Below are positions 1-11,311 of a stretch of 64,000 nt of DNA, piece by piece. Made by a program: the position numbers and the translations under genes. A model generated the notes under the pieces. It saw only the letters and a list, made by a program, of their open reading frames with translations, made no database searches and was not told the DNA's origin. The stretch lies in the NCBI GenBank assembly GCA_017937385.1, contig JAGBDR010000004.1, positions 57,540 to 121,539 on the forward strand, written 5' to 3'. The stretch is from Parabacteroides sp. Its GTDB lineage: Bacteria > Bacteroidota > Bacteroidia > Bacteroidales > Tannerellaceae. How positions within the stretch are numbered: the stretch's first letter is position 1; every line of letters starts with the position of its first letter.

Positions 1-95
1 GCCGCCCCTCGCGGGATACGGTTTGCATAGTCAATATGATCGAGCGATTTCAGCCATTCTGCTCCCCACCAAGTAAATCCGAATTTTTGTGCCAT
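1..95 (-). CDS. SWIM zinc-finger family protein, N-terminal fragment (cut by window edge)
   Basis: Only the first 31 codons are in the window; the gene continues beyond base 1. The reading begins MAQKFGFTWWGAEWLKSL and continues to a DYANRIPRG segment. This TWWGxxWL...NRxxRG pattern is what I know from the N-terminus of SWIM-type zinc-finger proteins of the COG4279 kind, which often sit beside SNF2 helicases; the zinc-binding SWIM motif itself would lie outside the window. The ATG directly follows a TAA stop (TAAATG) belonging to decayed coding sequence upstream, so the gene looks like the last visible member of the minus-strand defence operon. Its role is unknown; a nucleic-acid or protein-binding partner of the helicase is an inference from context. 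Confidence 0.6.
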   Translation of the reverse strand, partial: MAQKFGFTWWGAEWLKSLDHIDYANRIPRGA

Positions 96-355
96 TTATC
101 GTATTGTTTGAATGGAAACAAATGTATGAATTTTTTTGATTCCGGGTTGTTTTTTCGGGAGATGTTTGTATTGTTCGTTTTCGATAATCATAATTCGTGG
201 TGGTTGATTTCTATTATAGATATCAACTTTTTCTGGTACGAAACTTGTTGGTCATCGTTTCCTTGGTAACAATCCATATACCGTCATCCTGAAAATCTGG
301 ACAAGGGTTAGAGAGATTGAGTTCATTTATCTCAGCAGCAATGAAGAGGAATCAT
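96..355 (-). pseudogene. Decayed small gene between helicase and SWIM gene
   Basis: No intact gene spans this gap, yet it reads like coding sequence. An ATG overlaps the helicase stop (TGATG, 353-357). After a first frame change the stretch IAAEINELNLSNPCPDF (about 300-345) continues without stops to base 226. A second frame change near base 240 leads into IIENEQYKHLPKK and on to a TAA at 96-98 that abuts the next ATG. Both junctions are typical of a tightly packed operon, so I read this as a gene of roughly 85 codons inactivated by two small indels. Sequencing error or programmed frameshifting are alternatives. No family is recognised. Confidence 0.45.
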
Positions 356-3189
356 CACATAATATGCCATTTGAATCTGAACATAACTTTAGAATGAATT
401 ACATTTTTCATCTCACTCTGTAGTTTTTCTGTCATCTTGTCTACCTTGTCATGGTATTCGTCTTCCATGGCATACATTTGAACTCTTTTATGACTGAGGA
501 GTCTGGATATTTGATTTTCTTCTTTTTTTAATTGTAACTTGATAGTTGCGTTATGCTCTTTTCTTATTTGGCGACGGAGAGCATCGTGTTCTCTACTCAA
601 TTCCATCACCTCCTTTTGTGACGGAACAAGTTGGTCGTCAGCCCACATTTCATATTTATTGATTTCGTAATCAACATACTGATTGGTCCTCTCTTCTATT
701 ATCTGTTGGTTTTCCAATAGTTGTTTTTCATATTCTGCTTTAAATAAATCATCAGCGACATCAAGATTAGTTTCCGTTTCATTAACACATTCTATTTCCA
801 AAAGTTTAAAGACGAATTCCTTTGGAAGTCTTTCCCCTTTGTTTGTTTTGGCACAACCAATGAGATATTCTTCGGAATCATATTTATTCGAAGACGAAAC
901 CCTATAAACACAGGCTATGCCACTTTCCCCCTTATATTGTTCTACTAAGGCAGACCTGAATGGATAAGAATCCAGATCGAAGACCAATTTATAGTCCGAT
1001 ATATTTGTACTTATCGCCTTATTTATAATGTATTGTCCCAACGGATGCCCGTATCTCAGTTGAACGTATTTATCAGACTCTCTGTTCAAGATGTATGTTC
1101 CTGCAGGAATATCTTCGGCCAAAGATTTGTCGAGGGTGAAGATATGCTGTGTTTTATCCACATTTGATATGTCCTTTTTTAATACATTTATAGCAATTTT
1201 CCACAGATGTCTATTATATGAATCCATGCGCTCGGCATCCTCGTACTGGCGCATACGAAGTTTGTTGACTACCTCTTCATCAAAGTTTTCTAATAATGAC
1301 TTCCTTGTAGATTCAATTCTCTCCTTTATGATTGATTCCAACTCTTTTTGCAAGTCATCAAAGGCTGCGGCTATTTCTCGTTCTGTTCGACAGGTATTGT
1401 ATATAGTGTTCAGTTTGCGCTCAAAGTCAACACCAGAGTCCATCGAACCAAGGACCTCATCACTTGCTCCAAACACTCCATCAAACAGAGAAAATTTGTC
1501 TCGGAGTAATTTATACACACGACAATCAGCGTAATTTGCTTGATTAACAAAGTTGACTACAACCACATCATTTTTTTGGCCATATCGATGGCAACGCCCT
1601 ATGCGTTGTTCTATGCGTTGAGGATTCCATGGCATGTCGTAATTGACCACCAATGAGCAAAACTGAAGGTTTATACCCTCGGCACCAGCTTCGGTGGCAA
1701 TCATTATCTCTGCCTTGTCACGGAAGGTATCTACTAATGCCTGTTTTTTGTCAATGACAGTATTTCCTGAAATTCTGTTCGTTCCCTCATATTGCATAAG
1801 CCATAGACGATAGATATTTTTGGCTTCTGCGGAATCATTGGTGCCATTGAAACAAATCACCTTATCTTTATATCCATTATCCGATAAGAATTTTAATAGA
1901 TATTCTTGAGTTCTGCGGCTTTCGGTAAATATCAAAGCTTTATTTTGTCCACCAAGAGTCTTAATCTTTTCGAATGATACATCAAGCGCTTTCAATAGTT
2001 CCAGAGCCTTTGTCTCATCTCCTATTGCACGTGCCATCTTTATATATTTCTTCAGTTCTTCAATCTCACTATCCAGACTTTCGAATGAATAGTTTCCTGA
2101 TAGCGAATTGTCGTTATAAATGTTATACTCATCATTGTCGCCCTCAAAATCATCAGATATACAAGATAATGCGGAAATCATCTCTCCTGTTGTCTTATAC
2201 TCTTCCAAACGGTTGATGAAACGCTCCAATGTATAGGCAAGGGCGTATGACGAAGAAGCCATGATTTTCCTTACCAGAAGAGACAGTAGCGGACGTTGTT
2301 TTTTGGGTATTCCATATGTTCCTTCGCGCATCAGATAATTACCAATGTATTCATATAACTTAATCTCAGCTTCCGAGGGATAATACTCCTGCACGAAAGC
2401 AGTTCTTTTTGTGAAGTTCACATACTCCTCAACCTGTTTTCTTAGCGTACGGTGGATTATATGAGAAATTCGTCCCTTCAGTTCCCCGTATTTAGCAGCA
2501 TCACGTGTCGTAACAGCATTATATTGTTCGGCAAATGTGTCCAATCCTGAGAAGAATTGAGGGTCAATGATACTTATCAGTCCGTAAAGCTCTTTCAGGT
2601 TGTTCTGTAATGGTGTTGCAGTCAGCAATACTTTCTTGTAGTTCTGAAATGCATTACGGAGCGTATTTGCCATCACATTGCCTTTCTTATAAACATTCCT
2701 CAATTTATGAGCCTCATCAAAGACGATCAAGTCCCATGCCTTTTTTTTTAGGGAATCCGCATTAGCTACTGCAAAGTTATATGAACATATAAATATCAGG
2801 CTCTTACCCTTGATGTTTTGTCTTTTTGCATCATCCAAAGAGTTGCTGTCCAAAATGAATGAGGGGAGATAAAACTTCTCCATCAATTCAATGTTCCATT
2901 GATTGCGCAAAGATGCTGGCACAACAATAAGAATTTTTTTCCTGTTCTCCGCCCACAGTTCTGAGAGTATAATACCCGCCTCAATGGTTTTACCCAGTCC
3001 CACTTCGTCCGCCAGAATAGCCCCTTTGCTCAGAGGCGATTTAAAGGCGAACAATGCTGCTTCCACCTGATGTGGGTTGAGATCAACTCTGGCTTCCGAA
3101 AGAACACCCGTAAAACGACTGTCATCACTTACGGATTTCTTGTGAGAAATATCCCAAGCGTAATATAGTTGTTGAATCTGTGATAACAT
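355..3189 (-). CDS. SNF2/RapA-like helicase of a Zorya-type system
   Basis: This 944-residue superfamily 2 helicase should act as a DNA translocase. Visible motifs are a Q-motif-like NPHQ near residue 38, Walker A DEVGLGKT at 61-68, DEAH at 159-162, TATPLQN after it, and a C-terminal RecA lobe ending in the motif VI arrangement QRIGRCHRYGQ. A charged, coiled region precedes the natural end VMFRFKWHIM. No nuclease signature is apparent in the C-terminal third, unlike ZorD of type I Zorya, which pairs helicase and nuclease activities. The gene starts 4 bp after the GHKL-nuclease gene stops, so the two are surely cotranscribed. The family is certain; its place in a proton-motor defence system follows from the neighbours. 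Confidence 0.88.
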   Translation of the reverse strand: MLSQIQQLYYAWDISHKKSVSDDSRFTGVLSEARVDLNPHQVEAALFAFKSPLSKGAILADEVGLGKTIEAGIILSELWAENRKKILIVVPASLRNQWNIELMEKFYLPSFILDSNSLDDAKRQNIKGKSLIFICSYNFAVANADSLKKKAWDLIVFDEAHKLRNVYKKGNVMANTLRNAFQNYKKVLLTATPLQNNLKELYGLISIIDPQFFSGLDTFAEQYNAVTTRDAAKYGELKGRISHIIHRTLRKQVEEYVNFTKRTAFVQEYYPSEAEIKLYEYIGNYLMREGTYGIPKKQRPLLSLLVRKIMASSSYALAYTLERFINRLEEYKTTGEMISALSCISDDFEGDNDEYNIYNDNSLSGNYSFESLDSEIEELKKYIKMARAIGDETKALELLKALDVSFEKIKTLGGQNKALIFTESRRTQEYLLKFLSDNGYKDKVICFNGTNDSAEAKNIYRLWLMQYEGTNRISGNTVIDKKQALVDTFRDKAEIMIATEAGAEGINLQFCSLVVNYDMPWNPQRIEQRIGRCHRYGQKNDVVVVNFVNQANYADCRVYKLLRDKFSLFDGVFGASDEVLGSMDSGVDFERKLNTIYNTCRTEREIAAAFDDLQKELESIIKERIESTRKSLLENFDEEVVNKLRMRQYEDAERMDSYNRHLWKIAINVLKKDISNVDKTQHIFTLDKSLAEDIPAGTYILNRESDKYVQLRYGHPLGQYIINKAISTNISDYKLVFDLDSYPFRSALVEQYKGESGIACVYRVSSSNKYDSEEYLIGCAKTNKGERLPKEFVFKLLEIECVNETETNLDVADDLFKAEYEKQLLENQQIIEERTNQYVDYEINKYEMWADDQLVPSQKEVMELSREHDALRRQIRKEHNATIKLQLKKEENQISRLLSHKRVQMYAMEDEYHDKVDKMTEKLQSEMKNVIHSKVMFRFKWHIM

Positions 3190-3193
3190 ATTC

Positions 3194-6100
3194 TTATTGA
3201 TTTTGCTTCTGTTCTATTCTGATAGCATATTCAGGAGAGAGAGCATCGAACTCTTCGATTTTTGCTCCTTTCCAGTATTTTTTTGATACATCTTCACAAC
3301 GTTTCCTTAAATGTGGATTCTCCATAGGATTTGCATCCTTACCATAAGTGTCGCGCAATTCCTCGTATGACTGTTTAAGATTAAGATCAACCAGAGAGAT
3401 GCGGACAATATGGTACTTAGAATCCGGATGCTTCTGCATGAAGACGTTTTGTGAACAATGCAAATAGAATGGTGCCGTGCCATCTTTCAAACTGTAGAGC
3501 GTTGTCTTAACATCGACAAAAATCTTCTCTGCCTTTATTTCAAAATCATATTCTCCTACACCTTCGAGAGCAGCATGGATGAAATCCTTGTCTTTCACAA
3601 GTTTCTTGTTTTCCAAATAATGGCTATAGATAAGTTCGCCGATAAAGCCAATGGTTTGCCTTACCTGAGATCCTTTCTCTTCTTCGGCTTCGGCTTCAGC
3701 TTCAGTCAAGTCATCCATCATCTGCAGAATCTTGTCTTTCTTCTCTGCAAGTCTCTCAATGTCCTCCTTGTCAAGACCTTCAATCAGTTCCTTTATAGAC
3801 TTTGCCATTTCATTGAGCTTATCAAGTTCGTCACCATTCATTTGCTTGGTGATATTGTTGACTTGCTCTATATTTTCGGCAGTTTCAGTTGAAATCTTGT
3901 TAATTGCCTCTTGCGCTTGTTCTTCAGTGAGCGAACTATTGGTGAGGTCAATGTTTGACTTCCCATTTTCTTCATTATCACCATTTGTTCCTTGTTGCAA
4001 AAGTTCCCATTGATCAACATATAAAGACTGCAGAGCAATGAACGGTTGTTGGAAGAAGTCCATGCTACTAATATGCTTTGCAATAGTTCTCATCAAACTA
4101 AGACCGTCTTTATTGGGCTGTTGAACAATAACTCTTTTTCCTGGCTCATATCCAAATTCGCTATCATGCATCTTATCTGCAAATATACTTGTATTTGATG
4201 ACATGATATTGAATTTCATCATAATAGGCCTTTCAGATGTATGTATTGTGATTCCTTTAGATTCATCAGACTTCTTCCATAACTGGTAAACCGGGTCATC
4301 ATGTTCAGGAAAATCTTTAATGTCTACCGATGTTTGTAAATTCCAACGAGGATTTTTCTTAAACCCATGGTTGAAAAGTAACTCCTTATCACCATAGAGG
4401 TAGACAATGCTGTCCTTAATGAACTTTGCCAACTTCTTGCTACCATTAAGTCTTTCCTGAAACTGAGATCCAGCCCAGGCATACCATGAAAGGAAAGAAC
4501 CACCATCCTGATATCTTTCCAACATAAAAATTGGTTTCGGTATTGCAAATTCATTCTCTACAGGAGCTACGTTACCTGTATATCTAAGGAATGGCATAAC
4601 CACATACTCCGATGGCAATTTTTCAATTATTGCCATCATAGTATAGTACCTCTCAGACATATATGTATAGTTAAGCTTCTTCTCTATAGCCCAGTTTATT
4701 GTATTATCAATATCTCCCTTGTGAACTACATCAGCAAAACATACCACATCGCTATATGCTTCATTATCAAGTAATGCTTGACGTACAGCAATGTATGGAT
4801 TGGATGATGTTATGAGTCTTGTAAACAAATGCAAGGAACTTGGATTGTTGTCAATCCATTTTTGTATTACATCAGGCAAAAATTCACTTTCAAGAAGTAT
4901 CTCATGTTTAGCGTACACTTGTTTATCAAAATCAACATCTTCCATCTTGAAATGATTATCAAAACCTTCAAAGTTGTTTTTCAAGATCATATCAAGTGCA
5001 TCTGTAAGGCTTTCGTCTTCGGTTATTTCAAGGTCATCACAATTTGTATTGTTTGCTATAGCATAGTCTATACAGAATCTAAGTTGTTCAATAGAAAGAT
5101 AATGGGTACTGAGTTCTTCGAAAAGAACCTGTGTATCGACCTCATCTTCTTTTCCCTTATAATAATGTTCCTTGAAATAATCTATTTCAGTTTGTGATGG
5201 AAGACATTTCAAGAAGGAATCTATCGTTTGATTATCTTTCTTATAGTCTTCATCTAAAACATATACATCATATTCGTTCGCACCGACTTTTACAAATTGT
5301 TGAGTTATGGATGCTGGCAGTTCATTATCCTTATGGCGAATAAGTCCAAAAACCGTGTCAATATACTCATTTTCGTCTGTGTTACGCTGCACGGCAAATT
5401 CTATAATCTGCCATTTCAAATCCTCCTTCTTGATTTCACTATCAATGTTGATATTGTTCAATTTATTGAAGAACGATTCAACGACATTGGCATTAGCCTG
5501 TTTGACAAATGGGAAGAGTTTTATAGGATTGTTGAGACGTTCTATCGCTTTTAAAAGCATTGTCTCATTGGAGGCAAACCTATACTTGCCACTTTCTGTT
5601 TGCAATACCTCCTGTACATTGTTTGGAATACGATAGAAGTTTGCCGCGAGCAGTTCTGATTGTAATTCAGAAGAAACTGAATCAATATAATTATAACCAC
5701 TCGAAGTCTTTGTTATGATATATTTGCCGGAATTCTCTTGTGTTCTATATAACTGCAAGTATGCATCTGTAATTTTAATAAAAATACGCAAAAGTGTCTC
5801 ATCTGCGGTCAGCGAATCATTGACGATATTGGCAGATTGAACAGTTTCCACACGGAATGGAGCCTCCATAAGCTCTTTGTGGTATTCGTATGGCAGTAAC
5901 CTTAAATGCGATACTTTTTTAGCCAAATAATTGTATTCTTCTTCGGAAAGTCTTGAAACGTTATTTACGACTGCGCGTAACTGAGAAGTAGGCTTTCCAT
6001 ATTCATCTAGATACAATGTTAACTCCGTTTTATCGACATTACTCTGTGCATCTGTACCAACAGCCTTATATACTGTCTTTATGTCAGAGATATACTTATG

Positions 6101-8245
6101 GGTGTTTTCTCCCCATTCTTCGTTGTTTTGAAGATTTTCCCAATGAGAAATAACCCATTGCCAGCATGGTTTCTTTGCCTTGGCAGGGTTTAACAACCAA
6201 TTATTGGTTTTAACAGCCTCTGGTATATAACCTTTGACACAATATTTGTCAAAGAGTATGGTATCATTGGGACGCTCTAACATGATATTATCAAAAGAAT
6301 CATAAGTATCATGCCAGTTCTGAAGAAGTAAAATCTCGCTTCTTATTCTTGATATATAAGACTCGCTTTTTGACGCTATCCATGCTAAAAGGTTGGCAGC
6401 ATCATCCTTTGTAGAGTCTGACACTCTGAATGAAGTGATATTTGTCTTTATCTTTTCAAAAAGATTTGAAATATAGTTTGAAAGGTCAATATCCGATAGA
6501 ATCTCGCTAATGTGTTCACACTCACCAAATTTCATTCCTTCTTCATAGGCATAATATATGTTGTTCGTACTCCTCAATTCATTGTAACTGTAAAGATTAC
6601 CTTTATTTGAGCGGAATATTTTATAAGTCTGTACGCCACTTTCATTCTTATGGAAATCGCAAAGTCCATTAAAGACTTTATAATCATTAGTTGACAGAGT
6701 TTTTATCCAAACAGACAATTTTGTTGAGTCTGCATCAGACAGTAAGGTAGAGAAGTTAATGACTTCAACATCAACTTTATGACGTTTAAGGTCATTTTTG
6801 ACAGCATCATCTATCCACTTATATTTACTTATGCCTATTTCCTTCAATGGAATCTGTTTTTTTTCTTCAAAAGAACGAACATTTTCTTTTTTGTCATATT
6901 CTCCAGTAGATGTAAGAACAAACTCCTCGAAGAAAGGCATAAATACTTCCTGGAAGGCTTCTTTAATAAACTTAAAATCTTCACCATCAAGATATTTTGT
7001 AGCAGCAATTGCTTTGTATATGTAGTCAAACTTCGTTGGATTTGTATTCTTTAATTCTCTAAGTTCCTTAACAAGTTCTGCGAAAGCTCTTATCAACTGT
7101 CCCTTGGTTTTCTCTTTGTCACTGATACGTTGACGACTGCTATCAACATCAAATTTTTGGCTGTCGATGATAAAACCGAGTCTAAGTTTTGTTTCAAGAA
7201 TAGGAAGTCCCTTAAATAGATTGACGAAATTTCTCTCCGCAAAAATGGGATTAAACGCAAAATGATAGTAGAAGGGTTTACCATCTACCTTGAAATCTAC
7301 AAACACAGATTGAACTTCATGCTGTTCAACCTCTTCTCCCATGACGTATATATGGTCAACAGTCTTTCCTTCGTTTCTTTCCTGGTCTTTGGTGATGGAT
7401 GCAAAGCCACCTAAACGGGTCTTTACTCGTTCAAGGTTTGCTCCTGATGTGATTTTTTCATATTTCCCTTTACCGAGAGGAATAATCAGTGCTGTTCCTC
7501 TATTCAAAAAGTGAAAATTACGCCTTGGATCAACGAGAGAATCGAAAGCTTCTATTGCATCTAATGCTTCCTTTGTCGAGAACAATTCTTCGGAAGTACC
7601 AGGAGCAATAGGATAATAACTCATAAGAATCTTGGCAAACAGTATGTTTTCTTTGTAATCATCTCCTTGTGCAGGTATCCATTCTCCCTGCTTTTGTAAG
7701 AGGTTTGCAAGCTGTTTTCTATCATACCATGAGATAAGATATGGGCCTTTCTTCTCATCGTATAGCGTCTTTATTAAGAGTTCTTCATTCTCTTCGCTTT
7801 CACTAACCTCTGTCAGAAGTGTATAAAGCAATTTGGATCCCTGTCCATATTTCCCGAGCTTGTTGCTATCGGAGCGTTTTAGTGATTTCCCTTTAGCAAG
7901 AAAGTTGTATAGTTGTCCATCTCGAACACTCTCTGATTCAAAGATGTCAAAGTCAGTATAGAAAGGTTCACCATTATTCAATACGATCAGATATTTCTCG
8001 TTAGCGTAAAAAAATAGTGAATTAGCACTTGCATCATACGCATTCTGTACGAATTCATAAAATAACTGTTCCTCTGCATTACTAGCAAAACTTGCTGCAT
8101 CAGAAATAACAGACTTCACTTGGTCACGAGATGGGTCTTGACCATATATTTTCTGAAGAAGCAATTCTTTATTTGTACCAAGTAAATGTAAAGTTTCTTG
8201 GCCACAAAGTTTTACTATATATTGACCTACATTTCTTATATTCAT
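3194..8245 (-). CDS. Giant GHKL (sacsin-like) ATPase with C-terminal DUF3883/PD-(D/E)XK nuclease-like domain
   Basis: This 1683-residue protein begins with a Hsp90/sacsin-like GHKL ATPase. It has an N-box (E64, N68, D71 in EFVQNAYDA), a G1-like LNNGEPF around 89-95 with Asn in place of the usual Asp, and a glycine-rich GKYGQGSK at 131-138. A long central region without recognised domains leads to an acidic coiled coil around 1430-1525 and a C-terminal DUF3883-type domain: GFIGE near 1533-1537, then D1567 and VDVKTT at 1577-1582, giving a D...DxK nuclease-like core. It lies between zorB-like (7 bp away) and helicase (4 bp away) genes. I infer it replaces ZorC/ZorE as sensor-effector, possibly ATP-gated DNA cleavage. 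It should be compared with Zorya type III ZorF/ZorG, whose domain content I cannot check here. Confidence 0.75.
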   Translation of the reverse strand: MNIRNVGQYIVKLCGQETLHLLGTNKELLLQKIYGQDPSRDQVKSVISDAASFASNAEEQLFYEFVQNAYDASANSLFFYANEKYLIVLNNGEPFYTDFDIFESESVRDGQLYNFLAKGKSLKRSDSNKLGKYGQGSKLLYTLLTEVSESEENEELLIKTLYDEKKGPYLISWYDRKQLANLLQKQGEWIPAQGDDYKENILFAKILMSYYPIAPGTSEELFSTKEALDAIEAFDSLVDPRRNFHFLNRGTALIIPLGKGKYEKITSGANLERVKTRLGGFASITKDQERNEGKTVDHIYVMGEEVEQHEVQSVFVDFKVDGKPFYYHFAFNPIFAERNFVNLFKGLPILETKLRLGFIIDSQKFDVDSSRQRISDKEKTKGQLIRAFAELVKELRELKNTNPTKFDYIYKAIAATKYLDGEDFKFIKEAFQEVFMPFFEEFVLTSTGEYDKKENVRSFEEKKQIPLKEIGISKYKWIDDAVKNDLKRHKVDVEVINFSTLLSDADSTKLSVWIKTLSTNDYKVFNGLCDFHKNESGVQTYKIFRSNKGNLYSYNELRSTNNIYYAYEEGMKFGECEHISEILSDIDLSNYISNLFEKIKTNITSFRVSDSTKDDAANLLAWIASKSESYISRIRSEILLLQNWHDTYDSFDNIMLERPNDTILFDKYCVKGYIPEAVKTNNWLLNPAKAKKPCWQWVISHWENLQNNEEWGENTHKYISDIKTVYKAVGTDAQSNVDKTELTLYLDEYGKPTSQLRAVVNNVSRLSEEEYNYLAKKVSHLRLLPYEYHKELMEAPFRVETVQSANIVNDSLTADETLLRIFIKITDAYLQLYRTQENSGKYIITKTSSGYNYIDSVSSELQSELLAANFYRIPNNVQEVLQTESGKYRFASNETMLLKAIERLNNPIKLFPFVKQANANVVESFFNKLNNINIDSEIKKEDLKWQIIEFAVQRNTDENEYIDTVFGLIRHKDNELPASITQQFVKVGANEYDVYVLDEDYKKDNQTIDSFLKCLPSQTEIDYFKEHYYKGKEDEVDTQVLFEELSTHYLSIEQLRFCIDYAIANNTNCDDLEITEDESLTDALDMILKNNFEGFDNHFKMEDVDFDKQVYAKHEILLESEFLPDVIQKWIDNNPSSLHLFTRLITSSNPYIAVRQALLDNEAYSDVVCFADVVHKGDIDNTINWAIEKKLNYTYMSERYYTMMAIIEKLPSEYVVMPFLRYTGNVAPVENEFAIPKPIFMLERYQDGGSFLSWYAWAGSQFQERLNGSKKLAKFIKDSIVYLYGDKELLFNHGFKKNPRWNLQTSVDIKDFPEHDDPVYQLWKKSDESKGITIHTSERPIMMKFNIMSSNTSIFADKMHDSEFGYEPGKRVIVQQPNKDGLSLMRTIAKHISSMDFFQQPFIALQSLYVDQWELLQQGTNGDNEENGKSNIDLTNSSLTEEQAQEAINKISTETAENIEQVNNITKQMNGDELDKLNEMAKSIKELIEGLDKEDIERLAEKKDKILQMMDDLTEAEAEAEEEKGSQVRQTIGFIGELIYSHYLENKKLVKDKDFIHAALEGVGEYDFEIKAEKIFVDVKTTLYSLKDGTAPFYLHCSQNVFMQKHPDSKYHIVRISLVDLNLKQSYEELRDTYGKDANPMENPHLRKRCEDVSKKYWKGAKIEEFDALSPEYAIRIEQKQNQ

Positions 8246-8252
8246 AATGAAA

Positions 8253-8954
8253 TCAATAAGTTATATATGGAATAATTTGTATGATGAATGTTTTGTTTCT
8301 GTCTTCACCATTTGGACCATATCCAGTATATCTACCTTTGCCTTCTAAGCCTGATCCAGAGATAAACACTTCACCATTCTGTTTCTCGATATTCTTCAGC
8401 AGCCCTTTGGTACGCCAAAATAAATGTAGATTTCGTGCACGTTCATAACTAAGGCGTGCTGCATAGGCTTTCTGTGCATCATTGGGTGTTGGGTTGTTAT
8501 GAGAGCGTGCTGCGCGTCCTTCTATAACAACCTTGAAAGAAATATTTGTAGATTCCTTAAATTTTTCGATAATTTCTTCTACTTCTTTGCCGGCATCTTC
8601 AAGTTGAGAGTAACATTCCTGAGGGATAATAGGACTTTCTGGCTCAAAAGTAACATTTACGGTACATTCAAATCTTTGATATTTTTCGTTATACTTAAAA
8701 TATTTACGACTAATAGATTTCTGCGCGTCCTGAAACTCTCTAATTTTTTTATAGAGTTCTGCATTAACCACAATATCATTGATGTTGATTTCTGTTATAC
8801 CTTTGTTATGGTACAAATCAACATATACCTTATAACTACCATACGCAACGAGGCTTGTAATGATAAATACTATAAGGAATCCTGACATCAAATCGGTATA
8901 GTTTTGCCAGAAATTATGCTCTTCTCCGTTATCACGAAATGATATTCTACTCAT
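8253..8954 (-). CDS. zorB: ZorB-like stator protein (MotB/OmpA fold)
   Basis: A 233-residue inner-membrane protein. It has a short cytoplasmic N-terminus, one membrane helix at about 22-41 opening with NYTD (Asp21, positioned like the proton-binding Asp of MotB), and a periplasmic OmpA-like peptidoglycan-binding domain from about 105. In that domain VIEGRAA (143-149) and ARLSYERARNL (166-176) match the classic EGxxD...LSxxRAxxV pattern. In Zorya systems ZorA and ZorB form a proton-driven motor anchored in the cell wall that couples envelope sensing to cytoplasmic effectors. Its start overlaps the end of the zorA-like gene by 4 bp. The symbol is by analogy; MotB of a flagellum is excluded since no flagellar genes occur and the partner has a long tail. 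Confidence 0.8.
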   Translation of the reverse strand: MSRISFRDNGEEHNFWQNYTDLMSGFLIVFIITSLVAYGSYKVYVDLYHNKGITEININDIVVNAELYKKIREFQDAQKSISRKYFKYNEKYQRFECTVNVTFEPESPIIPQECYSQLEDAGKEVEEIIEKFKESTNISFKVVIEGRAARSHNNPTPNDAQKAYAARLSYERARNLHLFWRTKGLLKNIEKQNGEVFISGSGLEGKGRYTGYGPNGEDRNKTFIIQIIPYITY

Positions 8955-10510
8955 CTGTTATTAGCGATTTTATTTAGCACTGATTCCAATTTTTGCAATT
9001 CAACGATAGTTCCACTAACAGAATTAATTTGCTTAATGAGATGTTCGATATTCTCTTGACGATTTGTTAGTATATCAAGAACCTTAGAAATCATTTGATT
9101 TGTTTCTTCTATGGCTTGAAGACTCTTATTGTTTTCAAGAATAGCCTTTCCCGTTGTTTCATTCGTTCTATGAACATTTACGACTGCATCACCATAAGCA
9201 AGGACAGCTTGCTCATAATTCTGACGAATTTCTGCCACTAAAGTCTCAATGAACCTATAAGCCTTATTGAGTGATTCTACATTATTTGAGATTGCTGTAC
9301 CAAGTTCTGTGCATTGAGTAGTAATAATACTCTGTAAATCATTTACAAATACCGTAATCGACTCACGAAGGTCAGAAGTCGCTTTTTCGTTCATCTGAAG
9401 TGTGTTTGAAAGTATATCTGATGTTGCTTCTTGATATGCCGTGCGCAAATCTACCATCTGTTGAAGACTATTTACATTATGTTCTTGTACCTTTAAATAA
9501 TCTCTTTGCAACTGTTCTGTTATTTTGATTGCAAAATCATTGTTCTGTTCAGATAGTTTAGTTGCAAGTGAATCATAATTATTGATGATAGTATTTAGCC
9601 GGTCAGATTGCTGCGAATTGAGGGCTGCAAGAGACGTTTGAACCTCTTTAGTCAAGCTGTCCAGAGCCTCAGTAACAGAGGTGGTGATTTTCCCAATTTC
9701 AGAATTTGTACTGTTCATCATTGTTTCAACAGATTTACGCTGACTATCGATGATACCTTCTGAAACAGTACTTAATCTTTCAGTTATAGATGTTAGGAGT
9801 TGGCTTGTCTTTGTAAATTGCTCTTCACCAAACTCATGTACCTGTTTTTGAATAGCGCCGTGCATCTGCTTGAAGATTTCATCCATACGCTTAATAAAGC
9901 CATCAATGAATTCTTTGAGAATTTCACTTTGGTGACTAATGTTGTTATTCAGTTTATCATTATACTCTCTGTTTCTCTTTTCTTCTTCCTTATGAAGAGA
10001 TATTAATTCGGCTAATAGTTCATTATGCTTATCAAAAATAGGCTTGTTATAGGTCATCTCTTTTGAATAGATGGCAATATCTCGAATATACTCTTCAGGT
10101 GTGGTATTTGCAAGTTTACTGTTCTCTTCAACTTCTTCTTTCGCAAATTTTGTTTTTGACCATAGGGTAACAGCAAGTGCGCCAATAAGGCCTATGATAG
10201 ATGTTGTAAATGCAGGTATAAGCTTGCTGATAATCTGCATTATATTAATGACTTGACCACCTTCTGTTTTAACCTCTGCTAAAGTTTTACCCGTATTATC
10301 AATAACTTCAGAATTAGCATCTAATCCATGTAAAGAAAGACAAATTGCACAAAATGTTCCAAGAAGACCGAGAGATGTCCATACTCCAGGGAGACAAGTT
10401 AATAATGGTTTAGACTTTGTGTCGTCATACTTCTTTTTGCACCAAAATGTTGCTAATAAACCAATAGACAACACGATTAAATTCCACTCATTCCATAACA
10501 AATCAATCAT
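8951..10510 (-). CDS. zorA: ZorA-like proton channel with long coiled-coil tail (MotA/ExbB family)
   Basis: A 519-residue membrane protein with three hydrophobic helices at about 10-24, 42-60 (GVWTSLGLLGTF) and 97-117 (IPAFTTSIIGLIGALAVTLW), matching the MotA/TolQ/ExbB channel fold. About 380 residues of heptad-rich helix follow. That architecture, a short channel plus a very long intracellular tail, is the hallmark of ZorA, where the tail pentamer carries the signal from the membrane to the effectors. The ATG overlaps the last codons of a truncated upstream reading frame (stop at 10503-10505), so this gene was not originally first in the operon. Assignment as ZorA-like is strong from architecture and pairing with ZorB; the subtype is uncertain. 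Confidence 0.82.
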   Translation of the reverse strand: MIDLLWNEWNLIVLSIGLLATFWCKKKYDDTKSKPLLTCLPGVWTSLGLLGTFCAICLSLHGLDANSEVIDNTGKTLAEVKTEGGQVINIMQIISKLIPAFTTSIIGLIGALAVTLWSKTKFAKEEVEENSKLANTTPEEYIRDIAIYSKEMTYNKPIFDKHNELLAELISLHKEEEKRNREYNDKLNNNISHQSEILKEFIDGFIKRMDEIFKQMHGAIQKQVHEFGEEQFTKTSQLLTSITERLSTVSEGIIDSQRKSVETMMNSTNSEIGKITTSVTEALDSLTKEVQTSLAALNSQQSDRLNTIINNYDSLATKLSEQNNDFAIKITEQLQRDYLKVQEHNVNSLQQMVDLRTAYQEATSDILSNTLQMNEKATSDLRESITVFVNDLQSIITTQCTELGTAISNNVESLNKAYRFIETLVAEIRQNYEQAVLAYGDAVVNVHRTNETTGKAILENNKSLQAIEETNQMISKVLDILTNRQENIEHLIKQINSVSGTIVELQKLESVLNKIANNR

Positions 10511-10671: not shown

Positions 10672-10924
10672 ATGGCGAAGGTAGCGATAAAATCCGAAAA
10701 ACTCACCCCTTCTGGAGGTGTATTTCCAAGTCATGGAGCAATTTCCCTCCATTCTTCCCTCTATAATAGATTCAGTACTTGGGTTGAGAGGCAAACTCTA
10801 TGGTTATCAATACAGAAAAATCATCTGCTCACTCTTATGCATTTACTTTTGTGGCGGTTCTTGTGTTGAGGATGTCACCACCCACTTGATGGGGCTCTTT
10901 CTTATACCATCCACCATGCTATAA
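10672..10924 (+). mobile_element. IS1380-family transposase N-terminal remnant (frameshifted)
   Basis: The frame starts MAKVAIKSEKLTPSGGVF at 10672, then shifts by one frame near 10720 to continue VMEQF...LGLRGKLYGYQY...YFCGGSCVEDVTTHLM up to 10924. These segments match the N-terminus of IS1380-family transposases common in Bacteroides as I remember them. The catalytic DDE core and the right end are missing, so the element is dead. It sits exactly between the truncated gene upstream of zorA and the stop codon of hicB, and therefore marks a rearrangement point at the island edge. The left IS end should lie within about 10590-10670 but I cannot fix the terminal repeat. Confidence 0.7.
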
Positions 10925-11311
10925 TAAGTTTATTGCTGCTAACTCCTTCGTTAAAGACTGAATGCCTTTCTGGATTTTTTCTAACTGCTGCCTGCGAGGT
11001 TTGTGAACTCCGGCAGCGTAGTGCCACAACTGGCGTTCGTTAATTCCGGTAATCCGGCTCAAAGCAGCCTTGGTAAAGATACTGCTATAATAGTTGATAA
11101 AAGTAGCAGCATCTATCTTAAATTTCAATTCAAATTCTCCCGACAAAACTTTACATGGATTCGGATTATCTTCCAGATACAAATCAATTGCTTCCTTCAT
11201 GTTATCCTCAATCTCTTTCATGTCATTGCCTACAGTTATAACCGGAGCACCTTCGATATAAGCACTCAAATTCTTTCCTGCATGTTCTACAATTACTTCT
11301 ACTGTTTTCAT
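10919..11311 (-). CDS. hicB: HicB-like antitoxin
   Basis: A 130-residue protein with an N-terminal HicB partial-RNase-H-like fold (VEVIVEHAGKNLSAYIEG, then the IEDNMKEAIDLYLED helix). A C-terminal helix-turn-helix-like region follows (ALSRITGINERQLWHYAAG). HicB neutralises the HicA ribonuclease and represses the operon through its DNA-binding part. The gene follows hicA by 35 bp on the same strand, which is the usual toxin-first order. Its stop codon touches the IS1380 remnant. The assignment is firm because of the pairing. Confidence 0.85.
   Translation of the reverse strand: MKTVEVIVEHAGKNLSAYIEGAPVITVGNDMKEIEDNMKEAIDLYLEDNPNPCKVLSGEFELKFKIDAATFINYYSSIFTKAALSRITGINERQLWHYAAGVHKPRRQQLEKIQKGIQSLTKELAAINLL

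Follow-up and report, generated by a model that had tools for sequence, protein, structure and literature searches.

A conserved operon under selection was found in a 64,000-nucleotide stretch of DNA from a Parabacteroides sp. (contig JAGBDR010000004.1, positions 57,540 to 121,539), here called the window, which belongs to a genome of 3.73 Mb. Its four genes encode a ZorA-like and a ZorB-like motor subunit, a TmtA-type GHKL protein and a DrmD-like SNF2 helicase, all with their motifs intact and standing among defence-type genes. By its sequences, the set can be described as Zorya-like and as a candidate new type, in which the GHKL gene belongs by profile to the TmtA family of PADLOC, a family that we take to be Tiamat. 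With a probability of about 0.62, these genes form a four-protein system against phages or other foreign DNA, Zorya-like with a different cytoplasmic arm and a Tiamat-type effector. This reading is preferred because the gene order is conserved, the genes are tightly packed, the ratio of non-synonymous to synonymous substitution rates (dN/dS) is low, presence is patchy, the guanine-plus-cytosine (GC) content is low, defence-type genes lie nearby, motifs are kept and the C-terminal domain of the GHKL protein matches the NOV_C profile.

The fusion of a GHKL protein with a nuclease is already known, and what is new is its standing with a motor. A literature search, whose coverage consisted mostly of open-access titles, abstracts and excerpts, retrieved no published description of a ZorA-ZorB-GHKL-SNF2 set.

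Conservation and distribution of the operon

The ZorA-like and ZorB-like open reading frames (ORFs) overlap by 4 bp, and gaps of 7 and 4 bp separate the ZorB-like gene from the GHKL gene and the latter from the SNF2 gene. Related loci (L numbers; genomes carry G numbers) were sought in one genome per species, across 84,980 species, by using the ZorB alignment and exact short motifs. The scan gave 58 pattern matches, 14 of which encode relatives; because the motifs were short and exact, distant sets are missed, as exemplified by L151, a set without a helicase that is described below. The 14 loci come from Prevotella, Phocaeicola, Mediterranea, Cacconaster, Porphyromonadaceae and Bacteroidales, two of them being labelled Bacteroidia only. 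In all 14, ZorA and ZorB are followed, in the same order and on the same strand, by the GHKL gene or at least its beginning, and the SNF2 gene follows in each of the eight loci whose contig reaches it (L013, L014, L015, L018, L019, L021, L025 and L026), the contigs of L016, L017, L020, L022, L023 and L024 ending before that position. The GHKL frame ends early in L016, at 630 residues and just before the contig end, and is split in two in L020. All four genes are likewise present in L010, which resembles L023, and in L011. L013 is the only locus where another gene, for a Schlafen AlbA_2/RecG-C-like protein (L013:15830-17419), stands between GHKL and SNF2.

Comparison with three near relatives gave dN/dS values of 0.034-0.086 in six of 12 gene comparisons, the other six being saturated at synonymous sites. 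The operon genes are thus under purifying selection, and the conservation of their order goes beyond chance. Over nine complete sets, the pairwise distances of the four proteins correlate with r values of 0.937-0.983. The initial annotation had proposed a Zorya-type motor coupled to a GHKL giant and an SNF2 helicase; four minus-strand ORFs, an order kept in 14 of 14 loci and purifying selection bear this out, and the spacing of 4-8 bp that it gave was about right.

A search of 197 relatives for the GHKL protein gave three full-length copies (own genome counted) and one weak partial match. The GC fraction of the operon is 0.366, against 0.398-0.516 across 85 segments of equal length from the remainder of the window. 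Because presence is patchy (3 of 197) and GC is low, the operon looks as a laterally moved unit would. A search of the order with a three-row ZorA profile matched six of 393 genomes, two of them strongly and the own genome included; the ZorB search of the phylum also matched six, of 395 and again with the own genome, and the other five have no GHKL or SNF2 gene within about 10 kb on each side. No relatives were detected in viral contigs (ZorB and GHKL searches), phages (ZorB) or plasmids (GHKL), and one ZorB relative with 28.6% identity is carried on a Parabacteroides plasmid record. An empty insertion site was considered: GldB and MATE genes are adjacent in three of five same-genus genomes (L113, L114, L117), but the left flank differs, and no insertion point is claimed.

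The motor pair, the GHKL protein and the helicase

The A subunit has the features by which ZorA is recognised, namely a predicted MotA/ExbB-type core and a long cytoplasmic tail, the latter estimated at about 380 residues in the initial annotation and at about 380-400 here. PADLOC ZorA2 is matched by all 15 ZorA relatives (E<=0.01). Against the Protein Data Bank (PDB), the ZorA profile places ZorA chains at the top, 8qyk (2.6e-9) followed by 8qyd, 8qyy and 8vvn, with apolipoproteins and other helical proteins next, from 1e-4; the source organism and Zorya type of these chains are presumed. The residues T52 and S104 are invariant in 15 of 15 rows and align with T147 and S184 of 8qyk, whose role in ZorA we likewise assume. 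A ring of serines and threonines has been described for ZorAB in the available text of PMC11890865. A hydropathy scan found three membrane segments in the ZorA of L019 and L025, the first segment of the window protein falling under the threshold used. The window protein has no Pfam MotA_ExbB match, the Pfam MotA_ExbB search of its own genome returning two other genes only, and it does not reach the NCBIfam ZorA cut-offs.

The B subunit likewise appears to be a ZorB homologue with the membrane aspartate that characterises Zorya. All 15 ZorB relatives match PADLOC ZorB1 (E<=0.01), and the best PDB match of their profile is 8vvn_B (1.9e-9, 41 bits), 8qyd_F being weak (0.018). For both subunits, the top PDB matches belong to ZorAB entries, where they bear the name of ZorA or of a MotB-related protein; we count 8vvn among the Zorya entries on our own reading, in conjunction with PMC11890865. 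Asp21, noted already from the window sequence, lies within the sole membrane segment and does not vary in any of the 15 rows. The corresponding membrane aspartates of Zorya ZorB are D24 in type I and D21 in type II (PMC11890865, as far as available).

The periplasmic domain appears to lack the OmpA-like, peptidoglycan-binding motif of Zorya ZorB. In the window protein the Pfam OmpA match stays under the cut-off (16.9 of 27.2 bits), and in all 15 ZorB-like proteins GRAA or GRLA replaces the OmpA-type GHTD, a later arginine (R172) being retained. GHTD occurs in 8vvn_B and in L066-L068, and GHTS in E. coli ZorB2 and L151; the OmpA-type motif was not found in Klebsiella ZorB1 either, hence not every Zorya ZorB follows this pattern. 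L067:4052-7066 and L068:7290-9800 hold ZorA/ZorB-like pairs in which ZorB is of the GHTD type; a small third gene accompanies each pair, and its product in L067 has no Pfam match.

The two subunits point to different relatives. With the ZorB profile, L108-L110 reach 142-145 bits, L148 77 bits and L111 about 73 bits, but Zorya-type proteins (E. coli ZorB2, Klebsiella ZorB1 and L066) 16-20 bits and L151 20 bits. The ZorA core profile gives 17-30 bits on Zorya and Zorya-like proteins versus 1-11 bits on the tubulin-linked motor sets and L148. The sets L108-L111 and L148 thus resemble the operon in having the closest ZorB-like domain by profile, with the motif GRAA, GQAS or GQSS in L110, L112 and L148, and differ from it in their unlike A subunit, in their other partners and in lacking any GHKL or SNF2 gene over the stretches examined. 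Because of these opposite profile scores and of the ZorB motif, the motor may be a hybrid, in which a Zorya-type ZorA is joined to a differently related ZorB, the axle of the motor having changed once L151 had diverged. The ZorA and ZorB trees, unrooted and with long branches, separate the groups and do not prove a subunit swap; the proposal does not depend on them.

L108-L111, and L112 in part, share a conserved set made of a MotA/MotB-like pair and proteins of 1126-1157 and 482-505 residues. L108, the only member searched in Pfam, gave a weak FtsA match, a tubulin/FtsZ-like match below the cut-off and an A subunit above the MotA_ExbB cut-off. L148:8505-12627, on a Parabacteroides distasonis plasmid, has consecutive genes for a DUF4433 protein, an unknown protein and a ZorA/ZorB-like pair, within an integrase-bearing stretch. 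We know of no published name for the motor sets L108-L112 or for the L148 pair.

The GHKL protein matches the TmtA model of PADLOC (PDLC03970) over its full length by profile, with 635 bits from residues 1-1643 against model positions 1-1544 of 1552. A search of 395 phylum genomes with this model found any match in 43 of them, the own genome being best, and the next-best matches above 400 bits are confined to G229, G567 and G492. Their proteins (L063, L064 and L065) share 23-32% identity with the window protein over stretches of the N-terminal part, and no motor was found within the 19.5-20 kb examined around them. The giants at L063:5227-12150 and L065:6060-11411 stand beside BrxL, and that of L065 also beside PglZ; this placement of TmtA giants beside BREX-type genes suggests that TmtA proteins are exchangeable modules.

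The N-box E..N and the glycine boxes expected of a GHKL ATPase could be recognised, since none of the ten full-length proteins departs from E64, N68, N90-N91-G92, G131, G134 and G136; across relatives the first glycine box reads NNG, HNG, HDG or NDG. The window protein has no GHKL or DUF3883 match in Pfam, and its sacsin-type match is sub-threshold (29.5 of 50 bits, NCBIfam). The earlier labels MotA/ExbB, OmpA, GHKL and DUF3883 therefore stand in part: the window proteins miss the Pfam cut-offs, and the ZorA, ZorB and GHKL assignments rest on PADLOC and PDB profiles, on motifs, on the sub-threshold sacsin-type match and on the distant set L151.

L151 (8291-15476) is a ZorA-ZorB-GHKL set from genome G928, of the same class and another lineage. 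Its ZorA-like protein of 504 residues reaches PF01618 exactly at the cut-off (22.9 of 22.9 bits), and its ZorB-like protein of 215 residues scores 44.1 of 27.2 bits for OmpA. The GHKL protein of 1675 residues, in which HATPase_c_3 lies below the cut-off, matches the family profile over 1-1602 with 297 bits and 22% identity. Directly downstream lies no helicase gene but one for a large protein of secreted type that carries a CHU_C signal. When the class was searched with L151 included in the GHKL alignment, eight of 295 genomes matched, the own genome with 2583 bits, G928 with 1898 and the others with at most 208; in the five of the six weaker matches that were examined (G229, G1125, G1074, G1071 and G958, the sixth being G1099) no motor adjoins the GHKL gene. 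Because L151 is without a helicase, it is likely that the motor-GHKL pair predates the helicase link, L151 being the older form, or that the helicase was lost.

The C-terminal domain carries an E...D...(D/E)xK motif in register with NOV_C and is a putative nuclease core: all ten full-length GHKL proteins share E1537, D1567, D1578 and K1580, and L151 has a glutamate at D1578. The proposal that a putative nuclease sits on the GHKL protein rather than on the helicase thus held. DUF3883 has been described as a novel restriction endonuclease domain, fused in that case to an SNF2 helicase, with GHKL 'paraMORC' fusions in restriction neighbourhoods (PMC3710099, in the portion available). The comparison with NOV_C was made profile to profile (hhalign), with 30 column shuffles as control and with the NOV_C row L081 removed, as this row lies in the GHKL protein of L151 itself. 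The family together with L151 reached a probability of 90% and a score of 46.5 (shuffles <=16.8), and 83% and 41.5 (<=20.0) when L078 was also removed. A first comparison (54%, score 28.9, <=10.1 in 20 shuffles) was discarded, as one of its seven rows, L081, is a distant relative of the same protein. In the genome search, the L151 gene is just above the PF13020 curated cut-off (22.2 of 22.1 bits). No solved PDB chain is significantly similar to the C-terminal domain. By using its profile with default filters, none of eight other GHKL proteins was matched, and two were matched with the filters off, at 19.0 and 11.6 bits. GHKL fusions with a NOV_C tail are common, and further examples from the phylum are L070, L072, L073 and L074, of which L072 is a TmtA protein (one NOV_C-tailed GHKL protein matches PDLC03972 with 1176 bits).

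The fourth protein, already called an SNF2 helicase from the window alone, matches PF00176 (2.8e-36) and Helicase_C (8.1e-21), with K67, D158, E159, R529 and R532 invariant in 10 of 10 proteins. PADLOC DrmD (PDLC02619) gives 640 bits and ZorD only 109.7 bits, the NCBIfam DrmD model NF038318 gives 644 bits under a cut-off of 950, and the nearest solved structure is RapA (1.3e-46).

Known systems and genomic neighbourhood

With Zorya types I-III the operon shares the packed ZorA-ZorB order, the ZorA core and helical tail, the ZorB membrane aspartate and soluble downstream partners. It differs in its DrmD-like helicase, which has no recognised nuclease, in the nuclease-like domain on a GHKL giant and in GR[AL]A for GHTD; Zorya ZorD carries its nuclease on the helicase, whereas here the nuclease-like core is on a GHKL clamp. 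The partners that define the Zorya types (ZorC with ZorD, ZorE, or ZorF with ZorG) appear to be lacking, as no ZorC, ZorE, ZorF or ZorG was found among the PADLOC matches (E<=1; for the helicase, among the best 25 of 53) or in NCBIfam. Equality with Zorya type III, which the initial annotation had entertained, is ruled out by these PADLOC profiles, with no ZorF or ZorG among the matches listed for the four proteins, and by the domain definition of ZorF and ZorG as DUF3348 and DUF2894 proteins (PMC8565338, in the text available), neither domain being among the Pfam matches listed.

The likeness to TmtA comprises the full-length PDLC03970 match, the N-terminal GHKL motifs and the existence of a NOV_C-tailed TmtA. 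Tiamat is a single-gene system, whereas here the protein stands behind ZorA-ZorB in 14 of 14 loci and is accompanied by a helicase. As for DISARM, by sequence only the helicase seems to resemble it, below the equivalog cut-off: the SNF2 core is DrmD-like over residues 17-649, the C-terminal third is unmatched and no other DISARM gene is present in the unit.

Flanking genes were examined as 66 ORFs of at least 200 residues in the 14 loci, 58 of which were scanned against PADLOC (E<=1e-15), eight being omitted as cut by the locus end. Defence-type genes lie within 10 kb in at least eight of the 14 loci (Table 1), L017 and L025 having almost no flanking DNA. Two further reverse-transcriptase matches were not assigned to loci, and four of ten proteins in an additional flank scan had no PADLOC match. 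In the own genome, a pair of RloB/AbiLii and AAA_21/AbiLi genes (L003:12467-14274) is located about 6 kb beyond the operon end. Concerning the Druantia III neighbour, Druantia III is described to synergise with Zorya II in the part of PMC13192584 available. Upstream of the operon, a 130-residue ORF at window positions 10919-11311, on the minus strand, is HicB/HTH-like by eye, has no Pfam or PADLOC match and is a possible regulator.

The SWIM protein named in the initial annotation as a further part of the system is a neighbour outside the unit. By our reading, this SNF2-SWIM protein of about 1.17 thousand residues begins close to base 95 of the window and extends leftwards past its edge, and its gene, with a GC fraction of 0.493, lies about 260 bp beyond the helicase end. 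No SWIM homologue was found in the 14 related loci, of which eight extend past the helicase (five by about 2 kb and three by 0.3-0.5 kb), and the only matches of the SWIM protein there are the SNF2 genes; its inclusion in the operon was consequently rejected.

Table 1. Genes of the window operon (window positions) and defence-type genes flanking related loci
Feature	Position	Strand or placement	Description
ZorA-like motor A subunit, 519 residues	8951..10510	minus	predicted MotA/ExbB-type membrane core and ~380-400-residue cytoplasmic helical tail
ZorB-like motor B subunit, 233 residues	8253..8954	minus	one membrane helix with Asp21; variant OmpA-like periplasmic domain
TmtA-type GHKL protein, 1683 residues	3194..8245	minus	N-terminal GHKL motifs (~59-141), long middle, putative C-terminal NOV_C/DUF3883-like PD-(D/E)xK core (~1526-1620)
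SNF2 helicase, 944 residues	355..3189	minus	DrmD-like, residues 17-649; C-terminal third without DrmD match
Druantia III DruE	L013:1970-8383	same strand as ZorA-like gene, ~60 bp upstream	893 bits
AbiEii	L014, L015		PADLOC
GajB-like UvrD helicases	L019, L024, L026		PADLOC
Type III restriction enzyme	L021		PADLOC
Type II methylase	L023		PADLOC

Proposed mechanism and competing explanations

By analogy with Zorya, we infer sensing, torque transfer, clamp closure and cutting for a set whose parts, conservation and context are observed. In the available text of PMC11890865, ZorAB of types I and II are 5:2 motors for which peptidoglycan binding, ion flow and the tail of ZorA are all important, and ZorE is guided to the membrane by ZorAB upon infection. 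Similarly, the ZorA-like and ZorB-like proteins would assemble in the inner membrane into a rotary channel driven by ions and triggered by the envelope disturbance that an infecting particle causes. Through the long ZorA tail, this signal or movement would reach the cytoplasm and the effector would be gathered at the entry site, where the GHKL protein, as an ATP-gated clamp of the Hsp90/MORC kind, may close on incoming DNA, which its C-terminal nuclease of the NOV_C type would cut. The SNF2 translocase might feed or track the DNA, an aid that seems dispensable in L151.

Several points weigh against this interpretation. The motif aspartate is absent from the ZorB-like domain in 15 of 15 proteins, and Zorya-style peptidoglycan anchoring is therefore doubtful, while the example of L151 makes clear that the helicase is no obligatory component. 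PF13020 was not matched by hmmscan in the window protein, in the C-terminal domains of its relatives or in L151 (E<=0.1), the scan of ten C-terminal domains covering the best 25 of 28 families. The ten-protein family alone reached NOV_C with a probability of 44% and a score of 32.8 (shuffles <=20.5), and with 20% and 28.7 (<=18.8) when L078 was also omitted. The distance correlation among the four proteins also follows from plain joint inheritance, and the neighbouring UvrD helicases and methylases are not confined to defence. Moreover, the unit has no methylase, so that discrimination between self and non-self is unexplained.

Among the alternatives, the one that survives best, though it is an unlikely one, holds that the Tiamat-type protein and the DrmD-like helicase are the working unit and that the motor pair is only a membrane tether, without sensing or movement. 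TmtA-type giants do occur with no motor gene in the stretches examined (L063, L064, L065, L162, L163 and L164), two of them (L063 and L065) beside BREX-type genes, and the usual peptidoglycan motif is absent from the ZorB-like subunit. However, the motor genes come first in 14 of 14 loci and in L151, and the residues of the ion path (T52, S104 and D21) do not vary across the 15 rows, a constancy that would be needless for a mere tether.

Somewhat less probable still is that the unit targets plasmids or conjugative elements rather than phages, its motor sensing mating or envelope stress. A helicase, a clamp and a nuclease would suit any incoming DNA, and Bacteroidales are rich in conjugative elements; yet phages are what the closest motor systems, Zorya I-III, were shown to counter (type III in PMC8565338, types I and II in PMC11890865, each in the text available). 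A non-defence function in the envelope or in chromosome maintenance, like that of the tubulin-linked motor sets, can be regarded as improbable: the ZorB-like profile does favour L108-L110 (142-145 bits) over three Zorya-type ZorB proteins (16-20) and 8vvn_B (41), and L108 holds a tubulin/FtsZ-like protein, below the Pfam cut-off, but the patchy presence, the low GC, the defence-type neighbours and the TmtA-like and DrmD-like partners all point elsewhere, and by score the ZorA core is closer to Zorya than it is to the tubulin-linked sets.

Within the preferred reading of a four-protein defence system, a bolder proposal can be put forward only tentatively: the operon may represent a fourth kind of motor-based immunity, in which a hybrid rotary motor, with a wheel of Zorya type and an axle that is nearer by score to another motor family and devoid of the usual OmpA-type peptidoglycan motif, delivers ion-driven torque to an Hsp90/MORC-like GHKL clamp with a DNA-destroying nuclease of its own, the helicase having joined this older core in one Bacteroidales lineage.

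The set bears on how ZorAB motors communicate with their effectors, since here a related motor stands with a very different effector, from a family catalogued as a stand-alone defence, and with a DISARM-like helicase. It allows the notion that the motor is interchangeable to be put to the test, hints at a way in which a Tiamat-type protein might be activated, and provides a natural example of a motor with a replaced peptidoglycan motif.

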